64,000 bases of DNA from Capillimicrobium parvum. GTDB taxonomy: Bacteria; Actinomycetota; Thermoleophilia; Solirubrobacterales; Solirubrobacteraceae. Below, one piece after another: positions 21,766-22,901 of this stretch. The notes beneath the pieces were generated by a model. The model saw only the letters and a list, made by a program, of their open reading frames with translations, made no database searches and had not been told where the DNA came from. The stretch covers positions 372,001 through 436,000 of the forward strand of contig NZ_CP087164.1 of assembly GCF_021172045.1 (NCBI RefSeq), written 5' to 3'. The position numbers and the translations under genes are program-made. Within the stretch, counting starts at the first letter, position 1. Every line of letters begins with the position of its first letter.

Positions 21766-21893
21766 GGGTCAGAGACTAATGGTCCGCTCCGCGGGTTGGT
21801 CCGGTCGGTCGCGCCCGGAAGTGGGCGGTGGTCCGCGACCCATGCGGCGGAGGGCTGACAGCGCCGCTTCGACGCGCTACCTTGCCCGCTGCC

Positions 21894-22274
21894 GTGAACT
21901 TCAGCGTCGACATCGTGTCGATTCCGGTGAGCGAACAGGATCGCGCCCGCGCGTTCTACGTGGACGTCCTCGGCTTCGCCGTCCGCGAGGACGCCGAGAT
22001 GACCGAGGGCCGCCGCTGGATCGAGCTCGTCCCACCCGCCGGCGGCGCCTCCATCTCGCTCGTCACGTGGTTCGACGCAATGGCGCCCGGCTCGCTGCGC
22101 GGCCTCGTGCTCGGCGCCGACGACTGCCACGACGCGTTCGCCGAACTGCGGCGCCGCGGCGTCGAGTTCGTCGAATCGGAGGTGCAGGACGCGCCCTGGG
22201 GCCAGTTCGCCACGTTCTGCGACCCGGACGGCAACGGCTGGGTGCTGGTCGGCCCGGCGGCCGAGAACGCATAG
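21894..22274 (+). CDS. VOC-superfamily (glyoxalase/bleomycin-resistance-like) protein
   Basis: A 126-residue protein with two beta-alpha-beta-beta-beta modules. The first holds the metal-binding region SVDIVSIPVSEQDRARAFYVDVLGF; the second ends in FCDPDGNGWVLVG, with the D-P-D-G-N pattern and final strand typical of the superfamily. Fold and divalent-metal binding are secure, the reaction is not: members include glyoxalases, dioxygenases and resistance proteins. GTG at 21894 starts right at the first strand. It is a lone gene between the glycosyltransferase and the tRNA-Lys unit. Confidence 0.85.
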   Translation: MNFSVDIVSIPVSEQDRARAFYVDVLGFAVREDAEMTEGRRWIELVPPAGGASISLVTWFDAMAPGSLRGLVLGADDCHDAFAELRRRGVEFVESEVQDAPWGQFATFCDPDGNGWVLVGPAAENA

Positions 22275-22313
22275 ACGGGCGGCCGAGGGCCGCGGATCCG
22301 TCCGCGCCGTTTG

Positions 22314-22327
22314 CGAACGTATGTTCG
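22314..22327. promoter_or_regulatory. Perfect LexA-box-like palindrome upstream of the tRNA-Lys / HNH unit
   Basis: CGAAC-gtat-GTTCG is a perfect inverted repeat that matches the Gram-positive LexA consensus CGAAC-N4-GTTCG, including the R-N-R-Y spacer form. It overlaps TATGTT (22320-22325), a plausible -10 box that would start transcription about 39 bases before tRNA-Lys, and ends one base before ATG 22329. LexA binding is inferred from the consensus only. Confidence 0.5.
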
Positions 22328-22328
22328 T

Positions 22329-22844
22329 ATGAATGGCGGAGGGATCGAGGGTACGCTTGAGGACGAGTCTGCCCCCGTAGCTCAACTGGCAGAGCAAGAG
22401 GCTTTTAACCTCGAGGCTGAGAGTTCGAATCTCTCCGGGGGTATCCAGCGGCACTGTCCGAGGCACGGACTGGTCGTGCATCATCGTCTCAAGGAGCCGC
22501 GGAACGTCTCTGGATTCCGCTATCGCTGCGGGCGGTGCAACGGCGAAGCCGTCCTGCGGCGCAAGCGCAAGGTGAAGCAGATCCTCGTGGCCGAGGCCGG
22601 CGGGTGCTGCCTCGTCTGTGGGTACGACCGGTGCATCGGCAACCTCGCCTTCCACCACGTCGACCCGGCGCAGAAGCGGTTCAACCTGTCGAGTTGCAGC
22701 GGCAAGTCCCTCGCGGCGTTTCGCGAGGAGGCGCGCAAGTGCGTCCTCGTCTGCGCGAACTGCCACGGGGAGATCGAGGCCGGGCTGATCCCTTCGCCGC
22801 CCGCACCTACACTGAACGCCAGTACACCCGCCCCCATGGTGTAG
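22329..22844 (+). CDS. HNH-endonuclease-like zinc protein whose frame spans tRNA-Lys and ends in tRNA-Glu
   Basis: The coding part after the tRNA shows an N-terminal zinc ribbon (CPRHG ... CGRC), a basic linker (RRKRKVKQ) and an HNH core: CCLVCGYDRC, LAFHHVDP and CVLVCANCHGEIEAG. The His-His and CxNCH pairs are the expected catalytic and zinc ligands. The first Cys (base 22455) lies 12 bases after tRNA-Lys. The first canonical start after the tRNA, GTG 22476, would delete CPRHG. The only ATG that keeps it is 22329, which puts the whole tRNA-Lys sequence in frame as residues ~15-38. The stop TAG is bases 13-15 of tRNA-Glu. From 22329 the protein has 171 residues, from 22476 it has 122. The HNH identity is firm, the start is not. 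Confidence 0.65.
   Translation: MNGGGIEGTLEDESAPVAQLAEQEAFNLEAESSNLSGGIQRHCPRHGLVVHHRLKEPRNVSGFRYRCGRCNGEAVLRRKRKVKQILVAEAGGCCLVCGYDRCIGNLAFHHVDPAQKRFNLSSCSGKSLAAFREEARKCVLVCANCHGEIEAGLIPSPPAPTLNASTPAPMV
22371..22443 (+). tRNA. tRNA-Lys (anticodon UUU)
   Basis: A complete 73-base cloverleaf: acceptor GCCCCCG/CGGGGGT, D-stem GCTC/GAGC, anticodon stem closing the loop CTTTTAA (anticodon TTT), T-arm GAGAG-TTCGAAT-CTCTC, discriminator A. Base pair 27-43 is an A-G mismatch. CCA is not encoded. The gene is wholly inside the open frame of the HNH protein. Confidence 0.96.
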
Positions 22845-22901
22845 CGGTCAGCACGCGGGCCTTTCACGCCCGTAGCGGGGGTTCGATTCCCCCTGGGGGT
22901 A
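22830..22901 (+). tRNA. tRNA-Glu (anticodon UUC)
   Basis: A 72-base cloverleaf: acceptor GCCCCCA/TGGGGGT, D-stem GTGT/GCAC with one G-T pair, anticodon stem CGGGC/GCCCG with loop CTTTCAC (anticodon TTC), T-arm GGGGG-TTCGATT-CCCCC, discriminator A, no encoded CCA. The HNH stop codon lies in its D-arm, so the protein and tRNA genes overlap by 15 bases. Confidence 0.97.

Follow-up and report, generated by a model that had tools for sequence, protein, structure and literature searches.

We report a candidate SOS-controlled HNH nuclease gene of a homing type whose coding sequence appears to take in a complete tRNA gene. It lies in a 64,000-nucleotide (nt) stretch of the Capillimicrobium parvum genome (contig NZ_CP087164.1, positions 372,001 to 436,000 of the forward strand), here called the window, with positions counted from its first letter. 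The HNH gene (22329..22844, plus strand; 171 amino acids) runs in a single frame from ATG 22329 through all of tRNA-Lys(UUU) (anticodon TTT; 22371..22443, plus strand), a zinc ribbon and an HNH nuclease domain to a TAG at 22842-22844, which lies inside tRNA-Glu(UUC) (anticodon TTC; 22830..22901, plus strand). A LexA/SOS-type box, the 14-mer CGAACGTATGTTCG (22314..22327, plus strand), ends 1 base before the ATG. We favor, with a probability of about 0.62, the reading that this is an SOS-controlled, tRNA-targeting, homing-type HNH gene, the coding sequence of which includes the tRNA gene in this genus.

Both tRNAs are complete and score well above the Rfam cut-off (RF00005; 67.3 bits for tRNA-Lys and 67.5 bits for tRNA-Glu), and this tRNA-Lys(UUU) is the sole copy found in the genome. 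The first-pass annotation, made from the letters of the window alone, had described the continuous frame from ATG 22329 to the TAG within tRNA-Glu, and open reading frame and Rfam calls bear this out. Starting at either TTG 22311 or ATG 22329, the frame stays open, and 24 of its codons fall within tRNA-Lys. These two are the only in-frame ATG, GTG or TTG codons between 22311 and the CPRHG motif that opens the zinc ribbon (CPRHG...CGRC; 22455..22538, plus strand); the stretch from tRNA-Lys to CPRHG is devoid of them, and the next is GTG 22476, a start at which would truncate the ribbon. The annotation had rightly placed CPRHG upstream of this first canonical post-tRNA start, and its distance from the tRNA, given there as 12 nt, is 11 nt. 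Of the three frames through tRNA-Lys, the HNH gene uses the only one without a stop; openness through the tRNA alone thus has a chance of roughly 1/3. It is the SOS-type box directly before ATG 22329, together with the same layout in a second genome, that makes the tRNA-spanning frame more than chance.

That second genome belongs to the same genus (G001, locus L002) and shows the order of the window: box, ATG, tRNA-Lys, ribbon, HNH domain and tRNA-Glu. The layout is again seen in a metagenome-assembled genome (MAG HOG64, Solirubrobacteraceae; locus L026), which we take to represent the same contig as L002. The distance from ATG to tRNA is 42 nt in the window and 48 nt in L026 (an indel of 6 nt), and that from tRNA to CPRHG is 11 nt and 32 nt, respectively (an indel of 21 nt); both indels are divisible by three, and the box, the ATG, the tRNA and the frame are all kept. 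The HNH core is under purifying selection, with a ratio of nonsynonymous to synonymous substitution rates (dN/dS) of 0.33 at a dS of 0.45 and 17, 14 and 34 differences at the three codon positions, and neither member of the genus has a stop or a frameshift in the HNH frame. CPRHG is identical in the two proteins despite 4 base differences in its 5 codons, which points to translation beginning upstream of GTG 22476. In the sister genome the HNH stop lies 48 nt before tRNA-Glu, so that the ending inside this tRNA, correctly described for the window, is not conserved.

In the 64-kb window GAACNNNNGTTC has one match, the box of the HNH gene, with 0.35 expected by chance, and the genome has 16 CGAACNNNNGTTCG sites versus 3 for a control pattern. 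Genes of the ImuB, DnaE2, DinB and Rv2578c types and lexA are classic SOS genes. In the same genome, the 14-mer ends -1 to +2 nt from the starts of ImuB-like (assigned by Pfam IMS), DnaE2-like, DinB and Rv2578c-like genes, the DnaE2-like and Rv2578c-like frames being cut by locus ends and scoring below the NCBIfam cut-offs, and GAACACATGTTC is located upstream of lexA. Given this recurrence of the motif at the starts of SOS genes and before lexA, LexA probably binds the box that precedes ATG 22329. The short distance between box and start also suggests that the HNH message is leaderless or near-leaderless. An assignment of precise -35 and -10 elements to the SOS promoter was dropped, as a -10 inside the box would be too near the starts at a gap of -1; further 5' of the box lies TCCGTCCG (22297..22304, plus strand), a possible promoter element. 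SOS-type boxes were also seen at the start of an Rv2578c-like radical SAM gene with intein matches (L129) and beside short open frames that Pfam does not match (L122 and L133), which are possible further SOS genes.

Of 108 loci examined for relatives of the HNH gene, 107 were matched (L021 gave none), and 80 remained once duplicates, recognized by identical final 120 nt of the match, and a spurious second row of L080 had been removed; five weak places (E 9e-8 or weaker) were left out of the family set. tRNA-Asn(GTT) lies within 300 nt downstream in 66 of the 80 loci (61 on the same strand), tRNA-Lys(TTT) within 300 nt upstream in 10, and tRNA-Glu only in 1; three have no tRNA neighbour, two of them being at contig ends. 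Every one of the 62 loci scoring at least 150 sits beside a tRNA (54 tRNA-Asn and 8 tRNA-Lys). The usual order at the Lys loci is tRNA-Lys, box, start, N terminus, ribbon and HNH domain, with the tRNA of L003 on the opposite strand. In 7 of the 10 distinct Lys loci (L001, L002, L003, L006, L007, L027 and L029), an in-frame ATG or GTG follows GAACNNNNGTTC after 0-2 nt; L005 and L023 have the box and are apparently frameshifted, and L034 is a truncated remnant without a box. Since the HNH start directly follows the box in these 7 of 10 tRNA-Lys-linked relatives, ATG 22329 most likely represents the start native to the family, with tRNA-Lys sitting between the start codon and the zinc ribbon. Of the two starts that the first-pass annotation weighed, this favors the one ahead of the tRNA, which gives a protein with a tRNA-encoded segment. 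The remnant in L034 (2880-3240, equivalent to L245) has an upstream element running straight into the middle of the HNH domain, and its tRNA-Lys is on the opposite strand.

The box was found within 420 nt upstream in 49 of the 80 loci, the remaining 226 kb of these loci holding 5 boxes, and in 8/8 well-scoring Lys loci and 35/54 well-scoring Asn loci. TCCGTCC stands 14 or 18 nt before the start of the box in 23 of 46 boxed relatives (at -14 in 13 and at -18 in 10); in some loci a TTTTCCRTCCG-like stretch follows the box instead, and either could be a promoter element or a nuclease site. At the other end of the gene, among 64 same-strand pairs with a downstream tRNA, the HNH stop falls inside the tRNA in 15 and past it in 4. 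In 10 of the 64 pairs (e.g. L009, L025, L109 and L229) it occupies tRNA positions 8-10, with TAG corresponding to U8-A9-G10, and the tRNA thus supplies the stop codon. The tRNA-Asn-linked proteins of L012, L015 and L019 have two N-terminal helix-turn-helix domains, which are missing from the tRNA-Lys-linked protein of L003 and may read the tRNA-Asn site.

Profile searches of 146 genomes of the family and 399 of the class Thermoleophilia (E 1e-10 for the class), many of them incomplete, place the HNH gene in 50 and 60 genomes, respectively. In a tree of 61 protein rows, with a bootstrap that had yet to settle and weak support for 23 of its 58 inner branches, the 8 Lys rows form one clade (support 100/99), and the tRNA partner changes once, as opposed to 6-8 times with shuffled labels. 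Host family changes 15 times, versus 15-20 with shuffling, and a single clade for the 14 rows of genus g14, a group picked after the tree had been seen, was rejected (p-AU, from the approximately unbiased test, 0.0006). The gene therefore appears often to move or to be lost, with its tRNA partner going with the protein. Sites without the gene were found for both partners. In another member of the window's genus (G002, a metagenome-assembled genome; L115), 30 nt separate the glyoxalase-family gene from tRNA-Lys, and neither box nor HNH gene was found there; the two loci share only the upstream flank, on the glyoxalase side (21828..22274 in the window, plus strand; PF00903, 2.4e-15), and differ beyond tRNA-Lys. 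For tRNA-Asn, a genome with the HNH gene (G032) and one without it (G046), both of one genus, are 79-88% identical in both flanks. The tRNAs are complete in the window, L026, L115, L006 and L029, and the HNH gene is freestanding rather than within an intron or intein. Homing beside tRNAs would be the simplest account of the patchiness, the tree and the tRNA partner, and the homing-type element envisaged in the first-pass annotation fits this picture.

Relatives of the gene are also present in 299 phage records, and a plasmid search with the HNH frame returned none. In phage M5.1 the HNH gene overlaps tRNA-Gly, and phage Aci05 has it set among tRNAs. In IMG/VR, the 80 best of 399 relatives came to 71 once duplicates and two bacterial-looking contigs (L144 and L146) were removed; 55 of these 71 lie within 500 nt of a tRNA, and tRNA-Asn accounts for 24 of the 87 tRNA neighbours, where the tRNA content of these loci would lead one to expect 7.6 (none of 10000 draws attained 24). 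Phages were rejected as a precedent for a tRNA within a reading frame: of the 80 phage loci, only L145 and L171 keep the frame unbroken across the nearest tRNA upstream, and both have an ATG after the tRNA. In L144 and L146 the HNH gene precedes tRNA-Asn, with a box in L146, and these contigs may represent mobile elements at tRNA-Asn or bacterial sequence classed as viral.

The window protein matches PHROG 2255 (HNH endonuclease, 1.4e-24) and PHROG 3106 (2.9e-19), and Pfam and NCBIfam searches with it returned no HNH family. The HNH domain (FHH ... CANCH; 22575..22778, plus strand) was delineated from the PHROG profiles, aligned relatives and a predicted structure; its FHH and C..CH are invariant across 11 aligned relatives, and the cysteines, H and G of the zinc ribbon across 8 sequences. 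With a start at ATG 22329, the ribbon would be preceded by 42 residues, of which tRNA-Lys encodes 24. Structure prediction gives the zinc-ribbon block (residues 41-70) a predicted local distance difference test score (pLDDT) of 87-96; the mean is 96 for residues 41-50, only 66 for residues 31-40 and about 50 for residues 1-30, and the first strand of the ribbon (residues 39-43) comes immediately after the tRNA-encoded part. A Foldseek search against solved structures gave many HNH entries, all weak (best E 0.012), and the best fold match of its HNH part, also weak, is to Cap5 (Z 4.0; root-mean-square deviation 3.6 over 79 residues). A sequence search against solved structures returned no HNH entry and five chains of ribosomal protein L34 with E >1, and an effector match in PADLOC is weak (E 0.0086).

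As to mechanism, we infer LexA binding, read-through translation, a separate tRNA promoter, DNA cleavage at tRNA loci and homing, the regulatory and read-through half of this scheme from position and conservation and the cutting and copying half from the behavior of the family. With the SOS response off, LexA would occupy the box and tRNA-Lys would be made from a promoter of its own, for which TACGCT (22352..22357, plus strand), within the HNH frame, is a possible -10; by eye, the same TACGCT stands just before tRNA-Lys in the HNH-free L115. RNA from the tRNA promoter would begin after the ATG and hence lack the start codon, so that read-through from it would yield no nuclease. Upon DNA damage, LexA would leave the box, and a leaderless or near-leaderless RNA starting at about ATG 22329 would carry the ATG, the tRNA, the ribbon and the HNH domain, with ribosomes passing through the tRNA ahead of its folding and processing or in their stead. 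The leader can pair with the tRNA in competition with the cloverleaf in both genomes; shuffled leaders did equally well or better in 25/300 and 21/300 draws, and the folding of the whole stretch is not unusually stable (z 0.62). The nuclease would then cut tRNA-Lys loci that lack the gene, and repair would copy it in; the HNH lineage would in this manner occupy tRNA-Asn and tRNA-Lys sites and spread across genera while keeping its tRNA partner. The suggestion in the first-pass annotation that the nuclease depends on the tRNA transcript finds no support here, as the SOS-type box and the start codon lie 5' of the probable promoter of the tRNA, and other genera of the clade have tRNA-Lys before the box and an ordinary start. 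Its expectation that small HNH genes recur beside tRNAs holds within the actinobacterial class, as the 62 best-scoring loci attest. Homologues with a normal start and no tRNA neighbour, which it had held would speak against its proposal, are indeed found among the distant ones and not among the relatives of the class.

Several findings weigh against the favored reading. The tRNA is inside the frame in two genomes only, and a message of this kind would be cleaved by RNase P and by tRNA 3' processing. Only 5 of the 16 genomic 14-mer sites are tied to HNH or SOS-type genes, and the other eleven may be chance. The exact box is missing within 420 nt upstream in 31 of the 80 relatives, and its core fits RNRY, the consensus core, in only 27 of 46, TAGT being present in 14. 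Among 46 loci outside the class, from Patescibacteria, Omnitrophota and others and in part cut by contig ends, one has a tRNA nearby (L042) and two have GAACNNNNGTTC upstream (L044 and L079). Further, other carriers and non-carriers have common neighbours or flanks (22 chosen carrier and 17 non-carrier loci), and host genus changes 23 times on the tree (45 rows) versus 27-31 with shuffling; as hosts of one genus share some signal, the distribution may be partly inherited. Finally, the zinc ribbon is less constrained than the core (dN/dS 0.50), and translation could start later, from a rare ATC at 22443 in the window and from an in-frame GTG after the tRNA (2980) or a TTG inside it in L026. These last codons are at the heart of an account in which a non-standard start at the tRNA 3' end is used (ATC 22443 or GTG 2980, both in frame just after the tRNA) and the open frame through the tRNA is fortuitous, in line with which the phage relative L145 has an ATG one base past tRNA-Asn. 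ATC starts are very rare, and the mature tRNA ends with the A of ATC 22443, so that processing would split the codon; moreover, chance would have to cover an ATG behind the box at the place usual for the clade, the single stop-free frame and two frame-keeping indels. We consider this account unlikely.

The lesser constraint on the ribbon, which evolves faster than the core, would likewise suit a dying gene that lost its start once tRNA-Lys had become part of its 5' region, with the open frame a leftover, and the clade does include decayed copies, truncated in L034/L245 and apparently frameshifted in L005 and L023. However, a core held at the above dN/dS since the split of the two genus members, neither of which has a stop or frameshift, makes such decay decidedly improbable. 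The same purifying selection, along with the SOS-type box, is compatible with domestication in place of homing, i.e. a host function such as cutting tRNA genes or RNA under damage or phage attack, for which the genus signal on the tree and the weak likenesses to Cap5 and to a PADLOC effector could also be cited. Against it stand the patchy presence in family and class, with many genomes incomplete, a tree that follows hosts weakly and the existence of decayed copies; we regard it as unlikely, if still deserving of some weight. Lastly, the box might regulate tRNA-Lys itself, with the HNH gene a passenger, as 43 nt separate its end from the tRNA in the window and 49 nt in L002. Yet the box follows the tRNA and precedes the HNH gene at the other boxed Lys loci, and repression would silence the only tRNA-Lys(UUU) copy found, so that an SOS-controlled tRNA is very improbable.

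If the reading of an SOS-controlled homing-type gene is correct, a bacterial tRNA gene doubles as protein-coding sequence, read in sense and in frame, and a safety catch is built in, in that transcripts from the tRNA promoter lack the start codon. It would also tie tRNA-associated homing nucleases, known from phages and tRNA arrays, to the chromosomal SOS response. More tentatively, and at somewhat less than even odds, one DNA segment might serve both as the sole tRNA-Lys(UUU) gene found and as coding sequence of an SOS-induced nuclease, the transcription start deciding the product and tRNA maturation and nuclease synthesis being mutually exclusive for each RNA. The 54 tRNA-Asn and 8 tRNA-Lys loci offer a test set for what decides the tRNA target. 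SOS control may predate the association with tRNAs, as a distant homologue in a Chloroflexi metagenome-assembled genome (L079) has two GAACNNNNGTTC matches upstream and no tRNA neighbour.

Searches of an open-access library, with subscription papers mostly outside its scope, showed no description of HNH genes under SOS control at single tRNAs, nor of a bacterial nuclease gene with a tRNA translated as part of its frame. Published accounts describe SegB as cutting within phage tRNA genes and promoting the spread or amplification of the region (PMC13096335, PMC6409571), and HNH and SegB are discussed together for virus tRNA clusters in the latter (PMC6409571). Other studies find an endonuclease, often HNH, to be the most widespread coding sequence in groups of mycobacterial tRNA arrays (PMC5966550), and an HNH gene within tRNA clusters of presumed horizontal origin (PMC6582537). 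In another setting, HNH genes of M. smegmatis are upregulated with SOS genes according to a further report (PMC9416677).

Among known systems, the SOS genes of the same genome (DinB, DnaE2-like, ImuB-like and Rv2578c-like) share with the HNH gene a box with the start codon right behind it; they have repair functions and no tRNA is known inside them, whereas the HNH gene is of a mobile type with a tRNA within. The effector Cap5 (HNH-SAVED) of the cyclic-oligonucleotide-based anti-phage signaling system (CBASS) is similar only in the weak resemblance of its HNH fold; unlike Cap5, the window protein is small, ends after the HNH domain, adjoins a tRNA and gave no match to the C-terminal SAVED sensor domain. 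An anticodon nuclease, which would cleave tRNA at the anticodon, was also considered in view of the Lys, Asn and Glu tRNAs nearby. SegB of phages T4 and T6 is, like our gene, a freestanding nuclease gene beside tRNAs. SegB is of the GIY-YIG type, a family absent among the Pfam, NCBIfam and PHROG matches of the window protein; it is phage-borne, whereas ours is an HNH gene on a chromosome, with an SOS-type box and a tRNA inside its frame. Closest in kind are the HNH genes of phage and mycobacterial tRNA arrays (PHROG 2255/3106), which lie between tRNAs, the phage frames abutting or overlapping them and the mycobacterial genes being likened by description. In contrast to these, set among many tRNAs, the genes described here occupy single chromosomal tRNA-Asn or tRNA-Lys sites, are coupled to an SOS-type box and, in the examined tRNA-Asn-linked proteins, possess the two N-terminal helix-turn-helix domains.
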